Source: Chlorobiota bacterium (lineage in GTDB: Bacteria; Bacteroidota; Ignavibacteria; Kapaibacteriales; NICIL-2). Taken from it: a stretch of DNA of 64,000 bases. Each line of letters opens with the position of its first letter. Positions within the stretch are counted from its first letter, which is position 1. The notes beneath the pieces are model-generated. The model had not been told where the DNA came from, ran no database searches, and was given only the letters and a program-made list of their open reading frames with translations. The translations under genes and the position numbers were made by a program. Location: the NCBI GenBank assembly GCA_026416585.1, contig JAOAEV010000008.1, forward strand, positions 1 to 64,000, read 5' to 3'. Below are positions 16,888-33,188 of the stretch, in pieces.

Positions 16888-16950
16888 ACAGCAATAAGCG
16901 CCGACTGCCAATCCCTAATTTTGAAACATATTATTGAGCGTAGTTGTCGC

Positions 16951-18783
16951 ATGTGTGGCATTGTCGGTTACATCGGGCACCGGGAAGCGCTTCCGATCGT
17001 GCTCGAAGGATTGCGCAACTTGGAATATCGCGGGTATGATTCCGCAGGTATTGCTATTTGCGATGGAGCACGTATTCGGATTCGGAAGCGCGCCGGGAAA
17101 GTCGCGCAGTTGGCTGCCGACATCGAAGGCGAGGAATTTCCGGGTACCCTGGGTATTGGTCATACACGATGGGCGACACACGGCGAACCAACCGATATCA
17201 ATGCACATCCGCACACCGACGCCAGCGGACGCATCGTACTGATCCACAACGGTATCATCGAGAATTATGCCGTTCTCAAAACTCGGTTGGAACGCAAAGG
17301 GTACTCGTTTCGCTCGGAAACAGACACCGAAGTCCTCGCAGTATTCATCGGAATGCTCTACGAGCGGCTCGGCGATTTCGAACTTGCCGTTCGTACAGCG
17401 TTACAGGAAGTGGAGGGTACCTTTGGTTTAGCGATCCTTTCCAAGGATGACCCGGACTGCTTGATTGCTGCACGGCGCGGTTCCCCAATCGTTCTCGGCA
17501 TCGGCGACAGCGAATACATTGTTGCTTCCGATGCCTCCGCAATTGTAGCTCATACACGACGGGTGGTATATCTGCGCGATGATGAGCTGGCTATTCTTCG
17601 CCGGGATGGTTATGTGACAAAGACAATCGGCGACGAATTCATCGCACCCGAAATTCACGAGCTCGATTTTGAACTAGAGCAAATCCAGCGTGGAAATTTT
17701 CCACACTTCATGCTCAAGGAAATTTTCGAGCAGCCGGTTACGTTTCGAGATTCAATCCGCGGTCGACTCCTTGTCGAGCAAGGAAACGCAAAGCTGGGTG
17801 GGTTAACTACAGTTGCCGACAAACTCCGTGTGGCCCGACGAATCATCCTTACTGGTTGCGGTACCTCGTGGCATTCTGCACTGGTCGGTGAGTACGTCAT
17901 CGAGCAACTTGCACGGATCCCGGTCGAAGTTGAATACGCCTCGGAACTACGCTACCGTAATCCTGTGATTTACCCCGACGACATCGTTATTGGTATTTCG
18001 CAGTCAGGAGAAACAATAGACACCCTTGCAGCACTCCGCGAAGCCAGACTCAAGGGTGCAACGATTCTCGGGATCGTCAATGTGGTCGGCTCGACAATCG
18101 CTCGAGAGACTGATGCGGGAGTGTACCTGCACGCCGGGCCCGAAATTGGCGTTGCTTCGACGAAAGCGTTCACATCACAGCTTGCCGTCTTGGCACTACT
18201 CGGACTCTATCTGGGGCGACAACGAGACCTCTCGGCATCCGAGGGACAGCACCTGGCAAAAGAGCTGAACACAATACCTGAGCATATCACAACAATACTC
18301 GACAGCGCACCTACAATCGAGTACATCGCGCACCAGTACGCACATTGTACCAATGCGCTCTACTTAGGGCGTGGTGTTAACTATCCAGTCGCGCTTGAGG
18401 GTGCACTTAAGTTGAAAGAAATCTCCTACGTCCATGCTGAAGGGTATCCCGCCGCGGAAATGAAACACGGTCCGATTGCGCTCATTGACGAAAACATGCC
18501 TGTTGTCTTTATCGCCACGTGCGACGACATCTACGACAAAGTTATTTCGAATATCCAAGAAGTCCGAGCCCGGCGTGGACGCATTATTGCGATCGCAACT
18601 GAAGGTGATCAACGTGTCGCGGAACTTGCCGACCATGTCATTTTCGTGCCACCGACGCACTCATTACTAACGCCAATTCTAACAACTATTCCGCTACAGC
18701 TTTTGGCGTATTACATCGCTGTAGCGCGCGGGTGCGATGTGGACAAGCCACGAAACCTGGCAAAATCTGTCACCGTTGAGTAG
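16951..18783 (+). CDS. glmS: Glutamine-fructose-6-phosphate aminotransferase (isomerizing)
   Basis: CGIVGYIG N-terminal nucleophile; start moved to 16951 so that Cys2 follows Met; SIS domains; C-terminal PRNLAKSVTVE. Confidence 0.95.
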   Translation: MCGIVGYIGHREALPIVLEGLRNLEYRGYDSAGIAICDGARIRIRKRAGKVAQLAADIEGEEFPGTLGIGHTRWATHGEPTDINAHPHTDASGRIVLIHNGIIENYAVLKTRLERKGYSFRSETDTEVLAVFIGMLYERLGDFELAVRTALQEVEGTFGLAILSKDDPDCLIAARRGSPIVLGIGDSEYIVASDASAIVAHTRRVVYLRDDELAILRRDGYVTKTIGDEFIAPEIHELDFELEQIQRGNFPHFMLKEIFEQPVTFRDSIRGRLLVEQGNAKLGGLTTVADKLRVARRIILTGCGTSWHSALVGEYVIEQLARIPVEVEYASELRYRNPVIYPDDIVIGISQSGETIDTLAALREARLKGATILGIVNVVGSTIARETDAGVYLHAGPEIGVASTKAFTSQLAVLALLGLYLGRQRDLSASEGQHLAKELNTIPEHITTILDSAPTIEYIAHQYAHCTNALYLGRGVNYPVALEGALKLKEISYVHAEGYPAAEMKHGPIALIDENMPVVFIATCDDIYDKVISNIQEVRARRGRIIAIATEGDQRVAELADHVIFVPPTHSLLTPILTTIPLQLLAYYIAVARGCDVDKPRNLAKSVTVE

Positions 18784-18788
18784 CACCA

Positions 18789-20009
18789 ATGCACTGGGAA
18801 TCGCTCGGTGGCATTGCTCTCTGCATCTTGTTAGCCCGACTCCTTGCTCAACGCGGCAGCCGTTTCCCGTGGCGTGTGGTCGCATGGGGTCTTGGCTTGC
18901 AGCTTGTGCTTGGTCTGTGGTTGCTGAAAAGCCCGTGGGGAATTGCGATGTTCCAGCAAGTTAGCCAAGTAGTCACTGGTTTCTTGGGATTTGCCAATCG
19001 TGGTGCTGAATTTCTCTTTGGCAACCTTGTCAAAGCAGAGTACCGCAGCACTTTCGGCATGCAGGTTGCACTCATCATTGCACCGACGATCATCTTTTTT
19101 TCGTCAGTCATCGGAATTCTCTACCATCTGGGAATCATTCAGCGCGTGGTGTATGCTGTTGCATGGGTAATGTCTCGCACAATGGGAACATCGGGACCGG
19201 AATCACTATCGGCAGCAGCAAATATTTTTCTTGGGCAGACTGAAGCACCAATTCTGGTACGGCATTACTTAAGTTCAGCGACAGTGTCATAAATTCACGC
19301 AATCATGGTCGGCGGTTTTGCAACGATTGCAGGCTCGGTGCTCGGAGCATATGTCCAGCTTGGCATATCAGCCCAAGCGCTGATTACAGCCTCGCTCCTA
19401 TCGGCACCGGGCGGATTGATGCTAGCCAAAATCGCTCTGCCCGCAACTGGTGGCGAACACTCAATTGAATCCTATCACAGCATTCGCACGACATCTTCAC
19501 TTTTGGACGCAGCAACCAGTGGGGCACGGGATGGGCTATCGCTTGCGCTCAACGTCATTGCAATGCTACTGGCATTCATCGCACTGATGGCGATGCTCGA
19601 TGCGGCATTTGCATGGCTCCACTCTTGGATACCATGGATGCCAGCATCACTGCGCCAACTATTGGGATGGTTGTTTTTGCCGCTGGCATACCTACTTGGT
19701 GTTTCGAGTAGCGATGCAGCGAGTGTTGCACAACTTCTCGGTACAAAAATTATTGCTAACGAGTTTGTGGCATACACCGATTTATCCGAGATGATTCGGC
19801 TGCAGACGATCTCGCCACACGGTGCGATGATTGCGACCTATGCGTTGTGTGGCTTTGCAAACATTAGCTCGATTGCGATTCAAATCGGTGGAATCGGCTC
19901 ACTTGTACCGGAGCGACGCAGCGAGATCGTTCAGCTTGGCTGGCGTGCAATGGCGGTCGGTGCGTTGACCAATATGCTGAATGCCTCTATTGCCTCGCTA
20001 CTGAGTTAG
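18789..20009 (+). pseudogene. Concentrative nucleoside transporter (CNT/NupC family) interrupted by an in-frame TAA at 19290-19292
   Basis: N-part (18789-19292) carries [14 protein letters not shown]; C-part (19305-20009), same frame, carries [16 protein letters not shown] and GTKIIANEFVAY. Combined length is normal for CNT proteins. Confidence 0.88.
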
Positions 20010-20530
20010 TCGGGTTTCTCCAGCGGTGGTTGAAGTCTCCGGTCACGACGAATACCTGGACGCCCATCAGGCCCATCACGCTGAAGCAGTGCACGCTGTA
20101 GCGATTCCATAAAACGCACTTCGAACACGACGAGCTTAGCATACTGCTGGGGCGTCAGAAGGTGGCGCACTGCATTCAAGCGTTCGGTAATCGCCTGTGC
20201 AAATTGCTGCATCCTCTTAACAACCTGCTCGCTTTTTCCGTTAAGCTCAGAGTCCGACACTTTTGCTTTTACAGCTGCTTCGAGTTCATCAACAGCATCG
20301 TGTAATTCTTTTCGTGCCTGGTCAATTTTTTTCTGTCCTTCATTGTAGCGAACAAAAAATTTTTCGGCTGTTTGCTCATCAAGATCGAGCGTCTCGATAA
20401 GCTTGAGCTTTTTGAATTGTGCCAAACGCTTATGTCCTTGTTCTGCAGCAGGCGGCTGCGCAACAAGCGAGACCGTCGCGATTGCAATCAATACTGCCAT
20501 CCAATAATGACCCTTACTGGTACGAAACAT
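20006..20530 (-). CDS. Periplasmic Spy/CpxP-like protein
   Basis: Signal peptide, helical LxxLxxLxLxxxQ-like pattern (KKLKLIETLDLDEQTAEKF ... HLLTPQQYAKLVVFE). Confidence 0.5.
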   Translation of the reverse strand: MFRTSKGHYWMAVLIAIATVSLVAQPPAAEQGHKRLAQFKKLKLIETLDLDEQTAEKFFVRYNEGQKKIDQARKELHDAVDELEAAVKAKVSDSELNGKSEQVVKRMQQFAQAITERLNAVRHLLTPQQYAKLVVFEVRFMESLQRALLQRDGPDGRPGIRRDRRLQPPLEKPD

Positions 20531-21119
20531 CGCTCAAAACCTCGACAAATTGTTCAACAAACTGAGAATCGAGTTCTTCGTAGGGGAATGTGGCAAGAGC
20601 AACAGCATCGGGGACGAGTGATTCTTCACGAGTGTTTTTTGACGAACTACGCACGTGCTCGCTCTGCTTAGGTGTTTTGCTGGCAACATTGGAAGGACTA
20701 TCAAGCGATTTTGAAGCAATAGTCGCCGTACGCTCGTCCCGTTGTTGTGGCGAAAAGCCATGTGTCTCGAGCGACGTGCGTTCAACTGTGCGACCAAGTG
20801 GACGGAGTGCAAGCGTCAGAACAACAGCCGTAGCGATCGAAGCTACAGCCACCGCCCACCAGCGGTAATGCATAAAAAAACGACGGCGGCGGGGAACAAG
20901 ATGCTCAGAGAGCACAGCACTGATGTTACGTGACTCCCACTGCAATTGCTGGCGAATGCGTTCCGCGGGTAATACCGCGAACACTGTGCGAAGGTGTTCT
21001 ACCTCGGCGCAAAGCTCCGGCGACAGCATGAGTGCCTCTTCGACAAGACGACGCTCAGTCTCATTAAGCAGGCCGGAGATATAGTCTGGAAGCAGCGAGC
21101 GTATGTATTCGGTATTCAT
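20514..21119 (-). CDS. Membrane anti-sigma factor-like protein
   Basis: N-terminal helical anti-sigma-like domain, single TM (WWAVAVASIATAVVLTLAL), overlaps sigma gene end. Confidence 0.65.
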   Translation of the reverse strand: MNTEYIRSLLPDYISGLLNETERRLVEEALMLSPELCAEVEHLRTVFAVLPAERIRQQLQWESRNISAVLSEHLVPRRRRFFMHYRWWAVAVASIATAVVLTLALRPLGRTVERTSLETHGFSPQQRDERTATIASKSLDSPSNVASKTPKQSEHVRSSSKNTREESLVPDAVALATFPYEELDSQFVEQFVEVLSDVSYQ

Positions 21120-21721
21120 CGCTGTGCACCATTAGAAATGGGACGACCGAGCAACGCTGCAATCTTGCGAATAGCATGGTAGTAATTCGCTTTTAGGCCA
21201 CTGACGCTTGTTCCAAGGATGTCAGCAATTTCTTCGTAGCTTAATCCCTCCACGTACCGCAGATAAAACGTTTCGCGTTGTTTGGGTGGAAGCTTCGCAA
21301 GAATGCCATGGAAGAAATCAATAAATTCTCTGTCTTCCAACTCGCGATCGGGCAATGGCAACGTCGAGGGGAGTTCTTCGCCGCTCTCGACACAGCCGTC
21401 AAGAGGGACAAAACGCTTCCACCGCTTACGATATGACAAACACGTGTTGACAGTGATACGATAAAGCCACGTCTGGATCGAACTTTCTCCCTTGAAGCGT
21501 GGCAATGCTTGTAATGCACGGATAAAGGTCTCCTGTGCAACGTCGGCAGCATCATCTCGATTGCCATCGAGGTGGCGTAAAGCGATGCCATACACAAAAC
21601 GCTGATAGGTACGGATGAACCGTGATGCTGCTCGTTCACGATCGCCATCAGTCAGCTCCCGTAGGAGAGCGGTTTCTTCGGCTGTAAGCGCCATTGCGTG
21701 GGACGCCATTGTTGGGATCAT
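21116..21721 (-). CDS. ECF-family RNA polymerase sigma factor
   Basis: Sigma-2 (DVAQETFIRALQALPRFKGESSIQTWLYRITVN) and sigma-4 (LPPKQRETFYLRYVEGLSYEEIADIL) motifs. Confidence 0.92.
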   Translation of the reverse strand: MIPTMASHAMALTAEETALLRELTDGDRERAASRFIRTYQRFVYGIALRHLDGNRDDAADVAQETFIRALQALPRFKGESSIQTWLYRITVNTCLSYRKRWKRFVPLDGCVESGEELPSTLPLPDRELEDREFIDFFHGILAKLPPKQRETFYLRYVEGLSYEEIADILGTSVSGLKANYYHAIRKIAALLGRPISNGAQR

Positions 21722-21737
21722 TAGTGCTATCGACTCA

Positions 21738-21762
21738 CACGCTTTGACGCATCAGAAGCGTG
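21738..21762. promoter_or_regulatory. Perfect 7+7 inverted repeat upstream of the ECF sigma gene
   Basis: CACGCTT-11 nt-AAGCGTG, 17 bp upstream of the first possible sigma ATG. Confidence 0.35.
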
Positions 21763-21789
21763 GAAGGTTTAATGGCGGCCCCGTTCTAT

Positions 21790-22230
21790 CTACTCCATTT
21801 GCACGTCGGCAGCACGCTGCCCACCAGCCATCGCGACGATTTCGTCGTCGTAGTGATCGGCAATAATTGCCACGCTCATTACGGTTGTAACGAGCTCATT
21901 GCGATCGAGATTCGACGCGGTTACGGAGTGCGAAAAAACTATCGTGTCATCAAAAAGCAAACCGAAGCCACCAAGATGAATCTCTGCATTTTTTCGGAGG
22001 AGAAAGCGCATGAGCTGTTCGTCTATTGTCGCACCTGAGACCACGTGCGCCATACATTCGACGACGCACTCGATCTCGGTAAATGGACGGACCACAATGA
22101 TTACCTGGGTCGAGCCATGAGAGACAGCAAACGATCCGTTGGAGAAAGGAACATATTCGGGGAATGCATCACGGAGAATTGTCTCGACACGTTGTCGTGT
22201 TAACTCGATGAGTTCCTGTGGTGTCGTCAT
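21790..22230 (-). CDS. YbjN / type III secretion chaperone-like small protein
   Basis: 146 aa alpha/beta pattern with YbjN/CesT-like layout, adjacent to pspA. Confidence 0.45.
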   Translation of the reverse strand: MTTPQELIELTRQRVETILRDAFPEYVPFSNGSFAVSHGSTQVIIVVRPFTEIECVVECMAHVVSGATIDEQLMRFLLRKNAEIHLGGFGLLFDDTIVFSHSVTASNLDRNELVTTVMSVAIIADHYDDEIVAMAGGQRAADVQME

Positions 22231-22263
22231 AATTGCTCTCCAGCAAGTAGTTGAAATATGTGG

Positions 22264-22959
22264 TTAGGATGGACTGTTCTCACCAGTACTCGATGGTAGC
22301 TGTCCGAGCGATGATTTCAGTTTGGCAAGTTCTTCTTCGACAGTCGCACTCGAACCAAGCAGTTTGAACTCTTGCTCAAGCGAAGTACTCTCGCCCGCCA
22401 ATTGCTCAAATGCTGTTGCTTCTGCCTCAAGTTGTTCGATTTTGCCTTCAAATTTATCGAACTTTGAAAATGCATCAGATCCAACGCCGCTGAATGCTTG
22501 GGCAATCTGCTTTTGTGCTTTTGCTGCTTGCGAACGCGCAATCAATGTACTTTGTCGTGCACGGGCTTCATCGAGTTTTGCCTTGAGCTGATCAAGTTGG
22601 GCACGAAGTTTTGCCGTTGTTTGTTTTGCCTGCTCATAAATGGGTTGCAGATCAGCAGCGTTGCGGTCCGCAACAGCTTTTTTCTCCAACGCTGCACGTG
22701 CCAAGTCTTCTCGATTTGCCTGCAACGCATGAACCGCTTTTTGCTGCCAGTCGCGTGATTGTTCCTGTGCTTTGAGGATTTTTCGTTCGAGGGACTTTTC
22801 GTTTGCAATAGCTTGTGCAACAGCAAGGGTAGCTTTATTGACCGACTCTTCCATTTCGATGACCATCTGCTTGAGCATTTTTTCTGGGTCTTCGGCGCGG
22901 TCGAGGGCGTCATTGACGTTGGCTTTGAAGATGTCGGCTATACGACGAAAAATACTCAT
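22264..22959 (-). CDS. pspA: PspA/IM30 (Vipp1) family protein
   Basis: SIFRRIADIFKANVNDALDRAEDPEKMLKQMVIEMEE motif followed by long coiled coil. Confidence 0.93.
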   Translation of the reverse strand: MSIFRRIADIFKANVNDALDRAEDPEKMLKQMVIEMEESVNKATLAVAQAIANEKSLERKILKAQEQSRDWQQKAVHALQANREDLARAALEKKAVADRNAADLQPIYEQAKQTTAKLRAQLDQLKAKLDEARARQSTLIARSQAAKAQKQIAQAFSGVGSDAFSKFDKFEGKIEQLEAEATAFEQLAGESTSLEQEFKLLGSSATVEEELAKLKSSLGQLPSSTGENSPS

Positions 22960-23013
22960 AACCGCTTCTGTCTCGTGTGTTGACCAGTTCAGTTCAAAAC
23001 TACGAACTAATAA

Positions 23014-23805
23014 TCACAGTCGGTATGCCCATGGACGACGGTCGGCGAAAATATCGTTGATTGAATTGAAAGATTTATTCCGCGTCCGCGTGGGTTCTAT
23101 TGGTGCGGTAGCAATTCCTTCCGTATCGGGCGGAAGTTCGGTAATTACCATGCCGTTATAATTATAAATTGCTGATCGCCCATTGAACGATAGCGTTTCA
23201 GTACCATCGGATTCGCTCCCGATGCGGTTGGCAACAGCAACGTACACTTTGTTTTCGAGTGCACGAACTGGCATCGCCATCCGCCAAACGTGAGTCACCA
23301 GATTTGATGGACATGCAATAACATCAGCACCCCCGAGTGCAAGTGTCCGTGCTGCCTCAGGAAAACGCCAGTCGTAACAGATCATTGTCCCGAGCCGCAC
23401 ATCAAGCCAGCTAAAGTCAAGCACAAAGAAGCCCGTATCTCCTTCGTCGAAGACAAATTGTTCACGATAGAATAGATGCGTCTTGCGGTAGTAGTGCCGC
23501 TCGCCGCGCGGATCAAACACGACAGCAGAATTGAATAGTCGAGAGCCATCCCGTTCAGGGAATCCCACAACAACGACTTTTTCCTGCCGCTTTGCAGTAT
23601 TCTCGAGTGCATTGAGAATAACAGAATTACGTTCGAGGGCGATCGCTTCCACCTGGTGGCGCGTTGTAAAAAAATAACCACTCAGCGCTAATTCAGGGAA
23701 CACAACCACCTCCGCCTCGGCACGGTCAAGCAGCGCACAAATTCGTTCGAGATTGATCTCGACTTCGCCGAATGCAGGGTGCATCTGTACAACTGCGAGA
23801 TTCAT
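23014..23805 (-). CDS. Carbon-nitrogen hydrolase (nitrilase superfamily)
   Basis: Catalytic Glu-Lys-Cys contexts VFPELALSGY, YRKTHLF, MICYDWRFPE; start MNLAVVQMHP. Confidence 0.9.
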   Translation of the reverse strand: MNLAVVQMHPAFGEVEINLERICALLDRAEAEVVVFPELALSGYFFTTRHQVEAIALERNSVILNALENTAKRQEKVVVVGFPERDGSRLFNSAVVFDPRGERHYYRKTHLFYREQFVFDEGDTGFFVLDFSWLDVRLGTMICYDWRFPEAARTLALGGADVIACPSNLVTHVWRMAMPVRALENKVYVAVANRIGSESDGTETLSFNGRSAIYNYNGMVITELPPDTEGIATAPIEPTRTRNKSFNSINDIFADRRPWAYRL

Positions 23806-23888
23806 AAGCGGCGCTATAGAATTCAGGCGAAAAATACAGCAGCAATTTCCTAAGTTCGAGTGTGTTGCCCATCTGGAGACCAACGGCG

Positions 23889-24266
23889 ATGGATTCGAAT
23901 ATGCTCAATGCACTGCTCGTACTGCTCGCAGGGATAGCGTTCTTGGCAATTATCGCATTCATCCTCCGTCGGCTGGCAAGTGGTCGAGCTTCTACACACG
24001 GTTTGCCGATTCGAATTATATCCCGGCAACCGATCGGAGGCAAAGCCGCGCTCGTTGTCGCCGATGTTGGTGATAAACGGCTACTACTGGGAGTAACAGA
24101 ACATTCTGTCACCCTTCTTGCAACACTGGAACGTACCACGTCAAGTACCACGAGCAAAACAACAGCACCGAGAGTAACACCGGCCCCGCAAATGCACCCA
24201 CCATCGCCAGCGGAGCTGTCATTCCGTGCATATCTGGCTTCGATGTTTCAGCGGACAGAGAAATAA
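23889..24266 (+). CDS. FliO/MopB-like single-pass membrane protein
   Basis: N-terminal TM then LPIRIISRQPIGGKAALVVADVGDKRLLLGVTEHSVTLLATLER, matching the FliO core pattern. Confidence 0.7.
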   Translation: MDSNMLNALLVLLAGIAFLAIIAFILRRLASGRASTHGLPIRIISRQPIGGKAALVVADVGDKRLLLGVTEHSVTLLATLERTTSSTTSKTTAPRVTPAPQMHPPSPAELSFRAYLASMFQRTEK

Positions 24267-24381
24267 TCCATCGGCAGGGGCAAACCCACTGAGAAAGTTC
24301 GTAGTTTTGTGCCAGCCACTGTTGGCGCGCACGCACCCTGTTGGCATGGTGTGGTAGAGGACAGTTTTTTCCGCACGCTTC

Positions 24382-25404
24382 ATGAAATTTTCGTTTTTAT
24401 CGAACGACGTTGCTATTGATCTTGGCACCGCAAACACACTCGTGTGGATGAAAGGCAAAGGCATCGTTCTCAACGAGCCGTCAATTGTCGCATTCGACCG
24501 CACGACGAAAAACATTATCGCCGTTGGGCACGAAGCAAACGCGATGGTCGGCAAAACCCACAAGGATATTCGGACGATTCGCCCACTGAAAGATGGGGTC
24601 ATTGCCGATTTCGACATCGCCGAAGGGATGCTCCGAGCCTTCATTCGGAAGGTTTCGCAGTCGTGGCAGCCAGTTCGGCGTGTTGTGATCTGCGTCCCCT
24701 CAGGCATCACAGAAGTCGAAAAACGTGCAGTCCGTGACAGCGCAGAGCATGCTGGCGCTAAGGAAGTCTATCTAATCGCCGAACCGATGGCTGCAGCTAT
24801 TGGCGTAGGCTTGGACGTCCACGAACCTATTGGGAATATGATCGTGGACATCGGCGGTGGAACAACCGAGATTGCTGTCATTGCACTATCCGGCATTGTC
24901 AGCGACGAATCCATTCGCGTTGCCGGCGATGAGATGACTGATGCAATTGTACAGTACTTCAAACGCAAGCATAACATCCTGATCGGCGAGCGCACCGCAG
25001 AAATCATCAAACACGAAGTTGGCTCTGCCTATCCGATCGAGGAGGATGTGATCATCGAGGTCAAGGGACGTGATCTTCTTGAGGGCATTCCTCGTATGAT
25101 CGAGGTCAGTAGTGCCGACATTCGTGAAGCCCTCGAAGGAACAGTGCAACTGATTATTGACGCTATCATGAACCTTCTCGAGCGTACACCACCGGAATTA
25201 TCAGCAGATATCTTCGATCGTGGAATCATCTTGACTGGTGGAGGTGCCTTGCTCAAGGGTCTCGATGAACGTATCGCACGAGAAACACGCTTACCAGTTC
25301 ATGTCGCCGACGATCCACTCACTGCAGTCGCGCGAGGCTCAGGTCGAGTGCTCGAAAATCTCCCGGAATATGCTTCGGTGCTGCTCAAGTCGAAGCGGTA
25401 CTGA
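24382..25404 (+). CDS. mreB: Rod shape-determining protein MreB
   Basis: IDLGTANTLVWMKGKGIVLNEPSIVA; actin-family phosphate motifs. Confidence 0.97.
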   Translation: MKFSFLSNDVAIDLGTANTLVWMKGKGIVLNEPSIVAFDRTTKNIIAVGHEANAMVGKTHKDIRTIRPLKDGVIADFDIAEGMLRAFIRKVSQSWQPVRRVVICVPSGITEVEKRAVRDSAEHAGAKEVYLIAEPMAAAIGVGLDVHEPIGNMIVDIGGGTTEIAVIALSGIVSDESIRVAGDEMTDAIVQYFKRKHNILIGERTAEIIKHEVGSAYPIEEDVIIEVKGRDLLEGIPRMIEVSSADIREALEGTVQLIIDAIMNLLERTPPELSADIFDRGIILTGGGALLKGLDERIARETRLPVHVADDPLTAVARGSGRVLENLPEYASVLLKSKRY

Positions 25405-25410
25405 TGCGCC

Positions 25411-26265
25411 ATGCAACGGGTCGTCGAATGGCTTATCCGCTACCGTGAGCACGTCGTTACAACCCTTCTTTCGGTGATCGCTATATCACTAATGTCGTAT
25501 GGCAATGTCACGCAGTTAGGGGGCTTCCGCGCACTCATTATCGGTGGACTTGGAATGCTGCAAGAAGCATTTGCGTGGATACCAAACCCTGTCGCACTAC
25601 AGCGAGAGAATCGTGCGTTGCGCCAGATCAACATGGAACTATTGCAAGAAACGATGGTTCTTCGCCGAGCAGGAATTGAGAACGAGCAACTTCGCCGCAT
25701 GCTTGCACTTCGGCAGCAATCACGCTTACCACTATTGAGCGCATCAGTTATCGGTAAGACTGTTTTTCGCACGCGGCAATTCATTACAATTGATCGTGGC
25801 ACTACCAGTGGAGTACGCGTCGGCATGAACGTTATCACTGATGCAGGACTCGTCGGGACTATAGTTGGTGCAAGTAGCAATTACTCGATTGTCCAAACAC
25901 TTTTCAATCGCGATGTGCGCGTTAGTGCTCGTATAGTGTCAACACGCGATGAAGGTATCATTGTGTGGGATGGTTTCGAGTATCTTCTGGCACAGAACAT
26001 TCCAAAATCACATCGTGTCAATGTCGGCGATACCGTTGTAACCAGTGGATTAAGTACACGTTTTGTTCCAGAAATCCCCATTGGCATCATCCGGAGCGTG
26101 ATCAATGATCCCAACTCGATGTTCCATCGCATCACAGTCGAGCCGAATGTTGAATTTTGGCGGTTGGAGCAAGTATTCGTCATCATGCAGTTGCCACCGA
26201 CAGAGCACGCCGAGTTGGAGCGTTCACTCCAGAAATATATCGAACAGCGTATGAGGGGGAAATGA
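25411..26265 (+). CDS. mreC: Rod shape-determining protein MreC
   Basis: TM, coiled coil and beta domain (TIDRGTTSGVRVGMNVITDAGLVGTI); follows mreB. Confidence 0.92.
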   Translation: MQRVVEWLIRYREHVVTTLLSVIAISLMSYGNVTQLGGFRALIIGGLGMLQEAFAWIPNPVALQRENRALRQINMELLQETMVLRRAGIENEQLRRMLALRQQSRLPLLSASVIGKTVFRTRQFITIDRGTTSGVRVGMNVITDAGLVGTIVGASSNYSIVQTLFNRDVRVSARIVSTRDEGIIVWDGFEYLLAQNIPKSHRVNVGDTVVTSGLSTRFVPEIPIGIIRSVINDPNSMFHRITVEPNVEFWRLEQVFVIMQLPPTEHAELERSLQKYIEQRMRGK

Positions 26266-26287
26266 GGTCCTTTTGGCAGGTGCTCAC

Positions 26288-26788
26288 ATGATCATGAAAG
26301 AGTACGGTCTCTACGCTGTTCTCGCACTGCTAACCATTCTGGTGAGCACGGTTGCCAGCAACTTACTCTCGGTGGGAGGAATCACTCCAGATCTGCTGTT
26401 GCTCGTGGTAGTTGCCGTTGCACTTACGAAAGGACAATTTGCAGCGATCATTTTCGGCTTTGCCAGCGGATTGATTTTCGATCTTATCTCGACCGATGTT
26501 GTTGGGTCGAACGCTCTCGTCAAAATGCTGGCTGGTTATGTAGCGGGTTTTTTCTGGCGGGAGGGTTCGACAGTATCTGAAAGCATTGGATCGCTTCGAT
26601 ACGTAACGGTCACCCTGTTGTGTGCTTTTGTGCACAATGCTGTGTACTACCTGTTGTACACCCGCCCGGCAGACATTCCATTTGTCGAGTTCTACTTGAA
26701 AAACGGTGTCGCTGCTGCACTCTATACAACAGCTCTCGCACTACTGCCCTATTTCTACGCATCGCGCCGGCGAGAGGAAGGTGCCTAA
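26288..26788 (+). CDS. mreD: Rod shape-determining protein MreD
   Basis: Small polytopic membrane protein following mreC (TPDLLLLVVVAVALTKGQ). Confidence 0.85.
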   Translation: MIMKEYGLYAVLALLTILVSTVASNLLSVGGITPDLLLLVVVAVALTKGQFAAIIFGFASGLIFDLISTDVVGSNALVKMLAGYVAGFFWREGSTVSESIGSLRYVTVTLLCAFVHNAVYYLLYTRPADIPFVEFYLKNGVAAALYTTALALLPYFYASRRREEGA

Positions 26789-27558
26789 AAATCACACCGA
26801 CGGAATATGCGCTCACCGCGGATTAACGGATAGGCAATCCAAACAGATACAATCACAGCTATCACCAAAATGCTGCGTTCGGAACTAAAAAAATCCCGCA
26901 AGACAGCACCTGTGATACCAAGAAGAGCCGCGGTATCCGAATGTAATAGGACTGCTATACGGATGGCGTCAATCGGGTTGAATGCTAACAAGAGCAACAA
27001 TGCTCTCTCGAATGGATATTCTTGCAGCAAAGCCATCAAAGAAACCAACAGGGCATCGTAGAACACCGCGCAGTACAGCCACACTAAGAGGGTCATACCC
27101 ACACCTTTAGCTTTATCTGGCTGCCCGACTGCAATACGATAGGCAAGCGCACCAAAACATAATGTAAGCACAAGCGCTGTTGTCCCAACAATGGCAACAT
27201 CATAATTCTGCCAAATGGCATAGGTAAATGTGAACGGAACTTCGCACACCACCGCTAATGCAGCGATATTCCCTACCCACTGTCCCCAATAGTATGCACC
27301 ACGCCCGATGGGCTGAGCAAGCATCAGTTCTGTGAACTCTCGATTATTGTAATATTCCATCGCCACAAGAACAAGCGTTACAAGCGGCACTACCAGCAAA
27401 CACAAACTAACAATAGATAACGTTACTTTTGATGGATCACCACCAAATAACGAAAGTGCAGCAACAATGAGAGTGATGCCTATACCGTATCCGATCACTG
27501 CTCGACTACGAATAGTACGCAAGAACGCAGAGCGCGCCAAAACCAGAGTTACTGCCAT
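26785..27558 (-). CDS. nosY: NosY ABC-2 type permease
   Basis: Polytopic ABC-2 permease downstream of nosF in a nos cluster. Confidence 0.85.
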   Translation of the reverse strand: MAVTLVLARSAFLRTIRSRAVIGYGIGITLIVAALSLFGGDPSKVTLSIVSLCLLVVPLVTLVLVAMEYYNNREFTELMLAQPIGRGAYYWGQWVGNIAALAVVCEVPFTFTYAIWQNYDVAIVGTTALVLTLCFGALAYRIAVGQPDKAKGVGMTLLVWLYCAVFYDALLVSLMALLQEYPFERALLLLLAFNPIDAIRIAVLLHSDTAALLGITGAVLRDFFSSERSILVIAVIVSVWIAYPLIRGERIFRRCDF

Positions 27559-28280
27559 AGGATTCCGTCTTGATTGAGATACCATGCAATTGCACCCATC
27601 AGACTTGTCGCAGCAGACCGCACCATCAGCGATGCAATCGTTTCGTCTATTCGTACAACGCCGTCATACAGATACACAACTCGGTCCGCTACTTCAAGTG
27701 CATCGTTCGGGCTATGTGTAGTAAGAACAATCGTTTTCCCCTGCCGCTTTTCTTGCACGATCTTCGATTTTATCAGCTCTGTCGAGATAGGATCAAGTCC
27801 AGCAGTGGGCTCATCGAGCAACAACAATGTTGGCGAAAAATAGAATGCTAACGCCGCACTGACTCGTTGACGCTGACCACCAGAGAGTGAGCCAAGCTGT
27901 TTTTCCTGCAGCATCTCTATTTGTAGTTGATTGTATAATTGGCGATCATATGTTGAGCAATCACTCCTAATCATCTCCAGCAGCTTGAATAGCTCTCGAA
28001 CGGTCATCGTTTCAGGGTATCGTGCAATCTGTGGCATATAGCCTATCGCATGGCGGAACTTCATCCCATTTTCGATATTGCTTTCACACCCAAAGAGACT
28101 AATCGTACCACGATCGGGACGAACAAGACCGACAATACATTTGATCAATGTGCTCTTCCCAGAACCGTTCGGACCCATCAATGCAACGACCTCGCCAGCA
28201 TGAAACTCGATACTCACGCCGCAGAGTGCTCGGTGTTTCCCATACTGTTTGAACAAATCAGTGACCGTCAGCGCGTCGTT
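27549..28280 (-). CDS. nosF: NosF ABC transporter ATP-binding protein
   Basis: Walker A GPNGSGKST, LSGGQRQR, LLLDEPTAGLD; start MNDALTVTDLFKQYGKH. Confidence 0.9.
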   Translation of the reverse strand, partial: NDALTVTDLFKQYGKHRALCGVSIEFHAGEVVALMGPNGSGKSTLIKCIVGLVRPDRGTISLFGCESNIENGMKFRHAIGYMPQIARYPETMTVRELFKLLEMIRSDCSTYDRQLYNQLQIEMLQEKQLGSLSGGQRQRVSAALAFYFSPTLLLLDEPTAGLDPISTELIKSKIVQEKRQGKTIVLTTHSPNDALEVADRVVYLYDGVVRIDETIASLMVRSAATSLMGAIAWYLNQDGILWQ

Positions 28281-29589
28281 CATAGACACCGATACCATGA
28301 GTAGATAAACACATGGAGCTAACTTTCCACCGATATTGATTGCGCGTTGTCTTGGTTGCAATCGGCATCATACACGGTTTTCTATCAACCAACTGTACGG
28401 GAATGAGTGAAGGAATAGCTCGTTCCATATATGCAAGTAACTCTACGATAAAACTTCGCAGCAGCAGTACTGCCATCGGGATACGTTCGACAAGAATCGA
28501 GAATACCGAAACTGGGCGATACGGCACATCGCCATATCCATCATGATCGAGGTCATAGCCACGATACTGCTCCCAATAGTTACCATCACAATAGAACTCC
28601 GAGGAACTTGTATTGCTGAGAACATCAAACGTATTCGCGATAAAATCGTTGCTACAAACCGTATCGTCAGAGCAACTACCGAGTGCTTTCAATGCCCATC
28701 CGTTGGAATGAAAAATATTCGCTACAATCGTTGTTTGATTGGAACCTTCCATGTAGATACCGACTGTATTGCTGCGAAAGACATTACCAAAGACGGTGCT
28801 TCTCGATATATCCTTGAGCAATAATCCATAGCTACTTGGTCCCCAGTTATCAGCAAAAATGTTGGATTCCATCCGAACATGCTGAGAGTACATGACCGCT
28901 ACACCGGCACCATTCTGTTCAAATCGATTTTTCCGGTACACATTGCTATCGGAGAACATAAAATGCAAGCCATATCGCATATTGTTAGTGCTTATACACT
29001 CGGCAATATTGCAACCACGACTAAACTCGAAATAGAGACCGTCACGATGCTGTCGGATGTTACACTGTACAACTGTGCATGAGGGAGATTTCCACAAGTG
29101 AATGCCATTTCCTGATTGGGATTCCTTTGCACCTGTACCGATGGCGTTGATATTTTCGACCCGACAATTTGCTGACCGATACAGTATAACGCCAAAGGCA
29201 CAATGTTGTGTTGCGACGTCCTGGATTGTACTGTTGTAGCTATCAAGGAGCAGGATTCCTGCACGATCCTCGACTGCAGAATATCCTGTGTTTGCGATCA
29301 CGATTCCACGTATATGAACAGATGCACCTGATATAGTGAGCACCGTCCCTCTACCATCCCCATCGAGTACAGGACGATTCCTGCCAATGATGATAAGAGA
29401 TTTCGATATCGTCGCGTGGGTATTTCGGTACAATCCACTTTCAATGAAGATAGTATCGCCCGCCTGTGCACGCGCAACAGCATCCTCAACACTTTGCACC
29501 TGGCATTGAGCACAAACACGGAGAACGTCCGCTTTGATGCTACATGTGCAGACAACAACAAGAAGAAGCGCCCAATACACTGTTCTCAA
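28258..29589 (-). CDS. nosD: NosD periplasmic copper-maturation protein
   Basis: Signal peptide, right-handed parallel beta-helix (CASH) repeats, position between nosL and nosF. Confidence 0.92.
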   Translation of the reverse strand: MRTVYWALLLVVVCTCSIKADVLRVCAQCQVQSVEDAVARAQAGDTIFIESGLYRNTHATISKSLIIIGRNRPVLDGDGRGTVLTISGASVHIRGIVIANTGYSAVEDRAGILLLDSYNSTIQDVATQHCAFGVILYRSANCRVENINAIGTGAKESQSGNGIHLWKSPSCTVVQCNIRQHRDGLYFEFSRGCNIAECISTNNMRYGLHFMFSDSNVYRKNRFEQNGAGVAVMYSQHVRMESNIFADNWGPSSYGLLLKDISRSTVFGNVFRSNTVGIYMEGSNQTTIVANIFHSNGWALKALGSCSDDTVCSNDFIANTFDVLSNTSSSEFYCDGNYWEQYRGYDLDHDGYGDVPYRPVSVFSILVERIPMAVLLLRSFIVELLAYMERAIPSLIPVQLVDRKPCMMPIATKTTRNQYRWKVSSMCLSTHGIGVYERRADGH

Positions 29590-30656
29590 TTGAGCGAAGC
29601 AACATACCGTTGAACATCATCCCATGAAAGTACTTTGCCACCATACATATTTAGACTCTTACTTGCTTTCATACTATCTGAATATGCACTCAGATCAGCT
29701 CCCATAGGACTCGGGAGTTGCTCACTACGGAGGAATGATGCTTTGCGCGCATCAATCAGTGTTCCTGGCATTGTGTAATCTGTTACTAAAACAAAAACAA
29801 TACGTTCGGTATCAAATTGCTTACTGCGCAAGTAATTGGCCATACACTCGATCGAGTCAAACTTGTACACTTTACCTGTAGTCAGAACAATTTCAGAGCC
29901 GAATCGCTGATCACTGATAATCATTTTGCACAATGTGCACTCATCAAGACCGTACCGAATAGGCTCTGGTGCAGGCGAACACGAAATGCCACTGACACCC
30001 GACAAGATGAGTGGAGTAATAACCAAGGTCAATTGTTTGATGGAACTCCGCTTGCCCTGATTGGAAGACTGATATGTAGTACGTTGCCGAAGCCCTTGCT
30101 GTGAGTACCACAATGCTGCACCCCCAGCAACGATAGCCAACACGATTGCGTAACCACCCCATGACGGATACGAATGTGCTGTGATATTGAGCAACTGCTC
30201 CGTACCAATAAGTGGCGGTTTGTATATCATACCTTCTATCTTGATCGGAGCATTTGGATTGAGATTAGTGCCATAGTCACGTTCCCATTGATCGAAATCA
30301 TATAACCCAACAGCACAACTTATAACCATCGCCCCCACCCATATTCCAATGGTCCAGCGCCGTGGGAATATCAATGTAGCAACACCAAGGACAATCAAAC
30401 CACCAAGAATAAATGGCATAGCATGTAGCTCTGGGATGCTGTCCGGTTCGATAGGTTTCATACCGATGTAGTGATTCAAAATGTTGATATTCTCTAAATC
30501 GTGCTCGCCAATACCGCTGATGGTGTGGACGTAGATATACAGACCAATTGGTTCAGGGTATTGTGGCGCTTCCAGCTCAATCTGCCACAGTGGAAGCACG
30601 TATGCCAGTGCTAACAGCAGGATTCCCACCATAATCGACATTCTTGTTGCTTTCAT
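29586..30656 (-). CDS. NosB-like membrane domain fused to NosL copper chaperone
   Basis: N-terminal polytopic domain (PLWQIELEAPQYPEPIGLYIYVHTISG...NILNHYIGMKPIEPDSIPELHAMP) followed by NosL (GISCSPAPEPIRYGLDECTLCKMIISDQRFGSEI...FDSIECMANYL). Confidence 0.85.
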   Translation of the reverse strand: MKATRMSIMVGILLLALAYVLPLWQIELEAPQYPEPIGLYIYVHTISGIGEHDLENINILNHYIGMKPIEPDSIPELHAMPFILGGLIVLGVATLIFPRRWTIGIWVGAMVISCAVGLYDFDQWERDYGTNLNPNAPIKIEGMIYKPPLIGTEQLLNITAHSYPSWGGYAIVLAIVAGGAALWYSQQGLRQRTTYQSSNQGKRSSIKQLTLVITPLILSGVSGISCSPAPEPIRYGLDECTLCKMIISDQRFGSEIVLTTGKVYKFDSIECMANYLRSKQFDTERIVFVLVTDYTMPGTLIDARKASFLRSEQLPSPMGADLSAYSDSMKASKSLNMYGGKVLSWDDVQRYVASLN

Positions 30657-30684
30657 CTTTATTTCTCTCAATGTGATAGAAATT

Positions 30685-30717
30685 GGGGCAGGTTCGACAT
30701 TCAGTCTTCCCTGCCCC
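30685..30717 (-). terminator. Intercistronic hairpin between nosZ and the nosBL fusion
   Basis: Perfect 8-bp inverted repeat GGGGCAGG (30685-30692) / CCTGCCCC (30710-30717), 17-nt loop, only a weak T-run after it on the minus strand. Confidence 0.5.
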
Positions 30718-30747
30718 GTGCTGATGAGAGTGTGCTACATCGCACAA

Positions 30748-32706
30748 CTATTTACCAATACCGTAACTAATTGGAACGGCTGCACCTGCCGCTGAGACAC
30801 GCACATATCCCTGCATCTCTTGATGGAGAGCGGAACAAAAATCTGTGCAATAAAAAGGATACACACCTGATCGCGTCGGTGTCCATTTTAGTGTTTGAGT
30901 CTCCCCCGGCATAATAAGCATTTCCGCATTCTGAGCACCCTGCACCGTAAAGCCATGTGGAATGTCCCAGTCCTGTTCGAGGTTCGTCACATGGAAATAC
31001 ACTACATCCCCGACTTTTATCCCCTCGATATTGTCAGGACTAAAGTGCGACCGTATCATTGTCATGTACACATGCACTTCATTACCTTTCCGTTCGACAC
31101 GTACATCTTTTTCAGCCTTGACAGCAAACGGGTGCTTATTCTCCGCAAGTTTGAAAATGCGGACCGAATTCTTCGCTAGCAAGTCTGCAGGGCAGGCTTG
31201 AGCATAATGTGGCTCTCCAACTGTCGGGAAATCAAGTAATAGTTTCATCTTTTCGCCTTCAATACTATACAGTTGTGCTGATTGTGTCAACTCAGGACCT
31301 GTAGGCAAATAGCGATCCTTCGTAATCTTGTTGAGTGCAATCACATACTTGCCCCATGGTTGCTTGCTGTCGCCGCCAGGTATGCACAAGTGACCAATCG
31401 AATAGTAAGTTGGGATTCGGTCAACGACTTCCCATGTGCCGAGTTTCCACTTGACAATCTCTGATGAAACAAACATAGATGTATATGCATACCCTTTCCC
31501 ATCAAATTCTGTATGAAGTGGACCCAAACCCGGCTTTTGCACTTCGCCGGCAATACATGCTTCATATTTAATGATCGGAATGCCATCAACATCACCCTCA
31601 AAAGCATTGTCCTGAATAGCCTTCTGCATTCTTGAAAATGAGTACACCGGAATAACGGTTGCCAGTTTACCACCAGCAACAATATACTCACCAGACGGGT
31701 CCACATCTACCCCATGTGGAGATTTGGGACATGGCATCAGATACATCATGTTCGGGCATTCCTTCGGATCGAGTACGAGTACGTCGTTGTACACTGTATT
31801 ACTTGCGGTATGTGTTGCTTCATCATAACGGTTACTGTAATACGTCGCTTTGACACGTTTGCCTTTCCCTTGTTTGGCATATTCTTCGGCTTTTTTCCAA
31901 TTGACTGCTAAGATGAAGTCTTTGTCCTTCTGACTTGCATTGACCTCGAGCAGTGTATATGCTTTTTCCGAGTTATAGCATGAGAAAAAAGACCAATCGT
32001 GTGAGGGTCCCTTACCACAACGACTTAGGTCCCACTTAAAAGGTGGTGCGAGAATTTGGAATGCTACACTCATGTGTCCTGTTGTCGGCTCTATCTGTAC
32101 AAAAGAAATTACACCCTTAAAGTGCTGTTTGTAGGAACTGATCGGTACGTCTTGTCCTCCTGGTGGAACACTAAAGCGTGTACCGGCCACCACATACTCG
32201 GTGTTTTCTGTACAAAATGGCGACGCGTGGTTACCACCACTATTGGGAATTTCTATGATCTCAACTGTACGGAAGGTACGTAAATCGATACGCGCAATGC
32301 GAGGAGTATTATTTGCATTGATGAATAACCAGCGCCCATCGGGTTTCCCAGCTGTCATCGAGAATACCGGATGATGGGTATCATCCCATGGGATAAAACC
32401 GTAAGAAGTTTGTAGAAGCGGCTTCGTTTCTTCAGTAAAACCGTAGCCTTTCTCTGCATCAATACTAAAGACTGGAATGATGCGGAACAACCGTCCCGAA
32501 GGAAGTCCATAGACACCAACTTGTCCATTGAATCCACCAGACGTAAAAAGATAAAACTCATCATGCTTGCCTGGCGGTATGTACACTGCTTTCGCTGCAT
32601 CGTCGCTTGCCATTGCCGTCGAAGCACCGCTGTTTTTACAGCTTTGCACAGCAAAGCTTAGCACAAGCAATGTTGCTGCAATTGAGGGCCAAAGGTACCG
32701 TTTCAT
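30748..32706 (-). CDS. nosZ: Nitrous-oxide reductase, clade II (Sec-type)
   Basis: CuA ligand region FYCTDFCSALHQEMQGYVRV; His-rich propeller (DDTHHP, GNHASPF, HGVDVDPSG, GPLHTEFDGKGYAYTSMF, GHLCIPGGD, GEPHYAQ); no Tat RR motif in signal peptide. Confidence 0.95.
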   Translation of the reverse strand: MKRYLWPSIAATLLVLSFAVQSCKNSGASTAMASDDAAKAVYIPPGKHDEFYLFTSGGFNGQVGVYGLPSGRLFRIIPVFSIDAEKGYGFTEETKPLLQTSYGFIPWDDTHHPVFSMTAGKPDGRWLFINANNTPRIARIDLRTFRTVEIIEIPNSGGNHASPFCTENTEYVVAGTRFSVPPGGQDVPISSYKQHFKGVISFVQIEPTTGHMSVAFQILAPPFKWDLSRCGKGPSHDWSFFSCYNSEKAYTLLEVNASQKDKDFILAVNWKKAEEYAKQGKGKRVKATYYSNRYDEATHTASNTVYNDVLVLDPKECPNMMYLMPCPKSPHGVDVDPSGEYIVAGGKLATVIPVYSFSRMQKAIQDNAFEGDVDGIPIIKYEACIAGEVQKPGLGPLHTEFDGKGYAYTSMFVSSEIVKWKLGTWEVVDRIPTYYSIGHLCIPGGDSKQPWGKYVIALNKITKDRYLPTGPELTQSAQLYSIEGEKMKLLLDFPTVGEPHYAQACPADLLAKNSVRIFKLAENKHPFAVKAEKDVRVERKGNEVHVYMTMIRSHFSPDNIEGIKVGDVVYFHVTNLEQDWDIPHGFTVQGAQNAEMLIMPGETQTLKWTPTRSGVYPFYCTDFCSALHQEMQGYVRVSAAGAAVPISYGIGK

Positions 32707-32732
32707 CGCAGTCTCCAATAAGTGTGAAACAT

Positions 32733-33188
32733 TCACTTCGCACCATCCACCTGACGAAAGTATTCGAGGATAGCACGTGCTTGTTCTTTGCTGATATCTT
32801 GAAAGGTCATTGGTGTTAGGTAGGTTGCAAGTAATTCCTTAGCAGTTTGGTCTTTCTCGAGCATTTCTGATGGATTGAGTATCATGTTCATGATCCACTC
32901 TGGCTTTCGGCGCTGTGTGACACCTTTAAGCGCAGGACCCACGTATCGCTCTTCAAACTTGTGACAGGCTGCACACTTCTGCTCAAATATTGCTTTGCCT
33001 TTTTCCGCCAATCGAGAATCTATTGCCCCCAATTCGATGCGCTGGACAGGACCAATTCCGACATCGCTTACACTATTATTATCATGCTTTGCTGCTGATT
33101 CCGAGGCTGCCTTGCGATCGCTACACCCACTTAGCACTGCGCCAATGAGCACAATAGCAGCGATTCCTTGCTTCATTGGTAACATCAT
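32733..33188 (-). CDS. Monoheme cytochrome c lipoprotein, likely electron donor for NosZ
   Basis: Lipobox LSGC, CAACH, second Met-ligand region LTPMTFQD; immediately upstream of nosZ. Confidence 0.85.
   Translation of the reverse strand: MMLPMKQGIAAIVLIGAVLSGCSDRKAASESAAKHDNNSVSDVGIGPVQRIELGAIDSRLAEKGKAIFEQKCAACHKFEERYVGPALKGVTQRRKPEWIMNMILNPSEMLEKDQTAKELLATYLTPMTFQDISKEQARAILEYFRQVDGAK

Follow-up and report, generated by a model that had tools for sequence, protein, structure and literature searches.

An in-frame TAA private to one genome sequence in a CNT nucleoside transporter gene of the Kapabacteria/Chlorobiota: very probably a recent nonsense mutation or a consensus error

Analysis of a 64,000-nucleotide stretch of DNA (the window; positions 1-64000 of a 131-kb contig) revealed a nucleoside transporter gene whose reading frame is broken by one TAA codon. 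It is very probably an ordinary single-copy CNT gene (NupC-type, cation-coupled) whose codon 168 carries a private nonsense change of one base, which would be either a recent mutation or an error of the consensus sequence. A real, recent nonsense mutation is rather probable, a consensus error is a substantial but lesser possibility, and a gene that functions despite its stop is improbable. The gene most likely does not represent a novel type of split or read-through protein. The source is a 2.06-Mb, 131-contig MAG of a Kapabacteria/Chlorobiota genus, estimated to be 97.6% complete and 3.3% contaminated, and the stop lies well inside the contig, away from its edges. The features of the locus are as follows.

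16921..18783, + strand: glmS, glutamine--fructose-6-phosphate transaminase; longest ORF, with a probable start at 16951; intact (TIGR01135, 810 bits)
18789..20009, + strand: CNT/NupC-family nucleoside transporter gene with one in-frame TAA (frame, Pfam, structure alignment, TIGR00804)
18789..19292, + strand: N-terminal ORF, 167 aa, with the first three TM helices and HP1 with QTEAP; Nucleos_tra2_N and Gate (Pfam; helices from the AlphaFold2 model)
19290..19292, + strand: in-frame TAA in place of residue 168, which is Glu in every congener; approximate counterpart of vcCNT residue 172; third residue of the predicted TM4a, 166-178 (alignments, AlphaFold2 model)
19305..20009, + strand: C-terminal ORF, 234 aa from the ATG at 19305, which is the conserved Met173; second half of TM4a onward, NEFVAY, Nucleos_tra2_C (Pfam, alignment, AlphaFold2 model)
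20006..20530, - strand: ORF downstream of the CNT gene and convergent with it, sharing 4 nt with its 3' end; congeners have an orthologous ORF at the corresponding position (syntenic comparison)

The CNT frame comprises 406 codons and a terminal TAG, and the TAA at 19290-19292 is its sole break. The first-pass annotation had described two ORFs in the same frame parted by this codon (516 = 3x172), and its coordinates, frame and sequence were all confirmed. Both flanks of the stop are 80-86% identical to the congeners and align without gaps; a stop at this Glu site within a CNT frame is therefore far beyond chance. As deposited, the sequence does not encode one uninterrupted polypeptide, and the gene is intact in all congeners.

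Several matches support assignment to the CNT family. The N-terminal ORF matches PF01773 and PF07670 (Gate) and the C-terminal ORF matches PF07662, which are consecutive parts of one family; the three domains occur in CNT order and each exceeds its own cut-off. The 406-aa read-through product aligns over its full length with NupC-family CNTs of solved structure, e.g. vcCNT (PDB 3TIJ/4PB1; E about 1e-87), and shares with the family the QTEAP motif of HP1, the NEF motif and a predicted helix pattern with two hairpins. It differs from the family in the TAA at residue 168 and in a TIGR00804 (nupC) score of 417.6 bits, slightly below the 442-bit cut-off, so that the transporter is a CNT by Pfam and falls outside this NCBIfam subfamily model. 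In vcCNT, nucleoside is bound by Q154, T155 and E156 of HP1 and by E332 of the NEF motif (PMC4139061, PMC5465479), and the predicted counterparts Q150, T151, E152 and E325 are all kept. The initial description of a CNT with its other hallmarks intact thus agrees with the Pfam domains, QTEAP, NEFVAY and the binding residues. The genome contains one CNT copy only.

Relatives were compared at the position of the stop. The other five genomes examined from the genus each have the gene intact (80-86% identity), with Glu at the site, encoded by GAA in four and by GAG in one. The nearest sister (G003) has GAA, a single base away from TAA, and the proposal that one GAA-to-TAA change accounts for the stop fits this codon. 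Among 94 more distant homologues the residue is Glu in 84 and Gln in 10, as expected from the earlier remark that the position is normally Glu, and none has an internal stop. The same stop in close relatives had been named as a finding that would speak against recent inactivation; it was looked for and was present in neither the five congeners nor the 94 other homologues. The stop is private to one genome sequence among those examined. Gln replaces Glu in L050, L053, L057, L077, L081, L088, L089, L091, L096 and L102, mostly Planctomycetes. A search of viral contigs found no relative.

Apart from the stop, the gene gave no sign of decay. Between species of the genus, synonymous substitutions approach saturation, indicating that the window branch is long. 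Under a codon branch model, omega for the window branch versus the background was 0.040 versus 0.090 in the N-terminal part and 0.077 versus 0.058 in the C-terminal part. The latter difference is not significant (likelihood-ratio p = 0.42), and in the N-terminal part constraint is if anything stronger on the window branch (p = 0.07 or 0.035 depending on topology). The likelihood profile of the C-terminal part placed the approximately 95% upper limit for omega near 0.147, equivalent to at most about 10% of the window branch spent neutrally. The window gene has 6+7 private replacements, against 8+5 and 6+4 in two sisters; columns conserved in at least 95% of homologues were all unchanged. Past the stop, no relaxation of constraint was seen; only an old stop would be expected to produce it. 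This suggests that the gene, if dead, died recently. A gene still translated in full, whether by read-through or because the base is erroneous, would be just as compatible with the lack of further decay. With no relative sharing the stop and no excess of replacements, the earlier view of the change as recent or an error is supported.

If the base is real, translation would end after HP1 and yield a 167-aa product without TM4-TM8, HP2 and half of the binding site, and the strain (or whichever strain dominates the population) would very recently have lost its transporter; this would be a very young loss of the genome's only CNT. If the base is not real, the stop would be a consensus error and the CNT gene intact. 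In practice, automatic annotation would report either a pseudogene or a pair of short transporter genes in place of the single intact transporter gene of the genus; beyond annotation, the finding is otherwise of little import.

Two ways in which the gene could function despite the stop were considered. In one, the C-terminal 234 aa would be made by termination-coupled re-initiation at the ATG at 19305 and would assemble with the N-terminal piece in the membrane. An in-frame ATG 12 nt past the stop is consistent with this, and since only 4 of 31 gene starts checked across the window have a Shine-Dalgarno-like motif (61741, among the coordinates listed, is no true start), the lack of such a motif does not bar initiation. 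For the same reason its absence at this ATG, raised in the first-pass annotation, is uninformative and was rejected as evidence. However, this ATG encodes Met173, which is invariant in 33 aligned homologues and also present in the intact relatives; it is therefore not a newly gained start. According to an AlphaFold2 model made for the 406-aa read-through product (mean pLDDT 87), HP1 spans residues 136-161, followed by a loop (162-165) and TM4a (166-178). The stop thus falls at the third residue of the helix. Restarting at Met173 would cost the helix its first half and leave a C-terminal piece that lacks residues 168-172 and begins in mid-helix. The gene had been described as split between HP1 and the next helix, which in the model holds for the stop, located after HP1 at the start of TM4a, but not for the restart, located in the middle of TM4a instead of in the loop. 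A split transporter would be expected to break in a loop between complete helices and to have a dedicated start; here the modelled restart is at an invariant Met within TM4a. Judging from the alignment, two pieces would also divide the binding site, with the HP1 counterparts of vcCNT Gln154, Thr155 and Glu156 on the N-terminal piece and TM4b Val188, Glu332 and the rest on the C-terminal piece (for the roles of these residues in vcCNT see PMC4139061 and PMC5465479). Furthermore, no split CNT gene was found in 60 relatives, in two of which (G029 and G056) the gene appears in two pieces only as a result of being cut at contig ends. The earlier option of a functional two-piece transporter has accordingly lost ground, with no positive support, and is very unlikely; were two pieces shown to work, the result would bear on the assembly of elevator-type transporters. 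In the other, programmed or tolerated read-through of the TAA would yield the full 406-aa transporter. The frame is open on both sides of the stop and the downstream part is constrained, as in known read-through or recoded genes, where conserved sequence continues past the stop. Unlike such genes, this one shows no reassignment: among long ORFs in 320 kb of the genome, more end in TAA (72) than in TGA (67) or TAG (58), and no stop-reading anticodon was found by ARAGORN at the loci of the genome's 40 tRNA matches. Moreover, the RNA shows no unusual degree of structure near the stop (z +1.27), and the stop is not conserved in any relative. Literature on read-through and on in-frame stops in MAGs yielded nothing bearing directly on this case. 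Read-through, also raised at first pass, is left without positive support from tRNA, RNA structure or conservation and is more improbable still than re-initiation.

The preferred reading, a private nonsense change in an otherwise ordinary CNT gene, itself includes the consensus or assembly error, in which the population would have a sense codon at 19290-19292 and an intact transporter. This arm is plausible without being the likelier one. The fragmentation and estimated contamination of the source MAG favour it, as do the uniqueness of the stop and the lack of decay in the gene, and G-to-T changes are a common type of sequencing artefact. Against it, the stop is not at a contig edge, and other conserved genes in the window are without comparable interruptions, so that nothing points clearly to a raised local error rate. 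With recent nonsense pseudogenes the locus shares a stop private to one genome, absent from relatives, in a frame that is otherwise intact; it differs in that the loss of function would here be read from sequence and a consensus error keeps its share of the probability.

The search for other interrupted genes by congener comparison covered the window, in which ORFs taken from syntenic regions of congeners matched 56 territories, some of them shadow ORFs on the wrong strand or in the wrong frame. The stop in the CNT gene is the only mid-gene stop among these 56 stretches and is present against all four congeners compared. Other stops in genes proper lie in N- or C-terminal extensions of over-long congener ORFs, the sorting of extensions and shadow frames being our reading of the table. 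One apparent stop, at 20536 in the convergent neighbour, is likewise a product of over-long congener ORFs and lies just upstream of that gene's ATG. A reference-free scan for in-frame stops based on codon usage, applied to 320 kb of the genome, missed the known CNT stop and is consequently uninformative on the genome-wide rate of interruption.

The CNT gene is probably co-transcribed with glmS, which ends 5 nt upstream of the CNT ATG in an arrangement also seen in congeners; the congener orthologues of glmS are 87-90% identical and without a stop. The rarity of Shine-Dalgarno-like motifs described above was noted for gene starts at window positions 16921-31000. Elsewhere in the window, a nitrous-oxide reduction cluster is located at 26785-32736 (- strand), encoding a Sec-dependent NosZ (TIGR04246, 953 bits), NosD (TIGR04247), an ABC ATPase and permease, and a NosL-like protein called by eye. 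Among the syntenic stretches compared, only that of G005 gave matches to NosZ and NosD, those of G001 and G004 giving none, and the cluster seems to be variably present in the genus.
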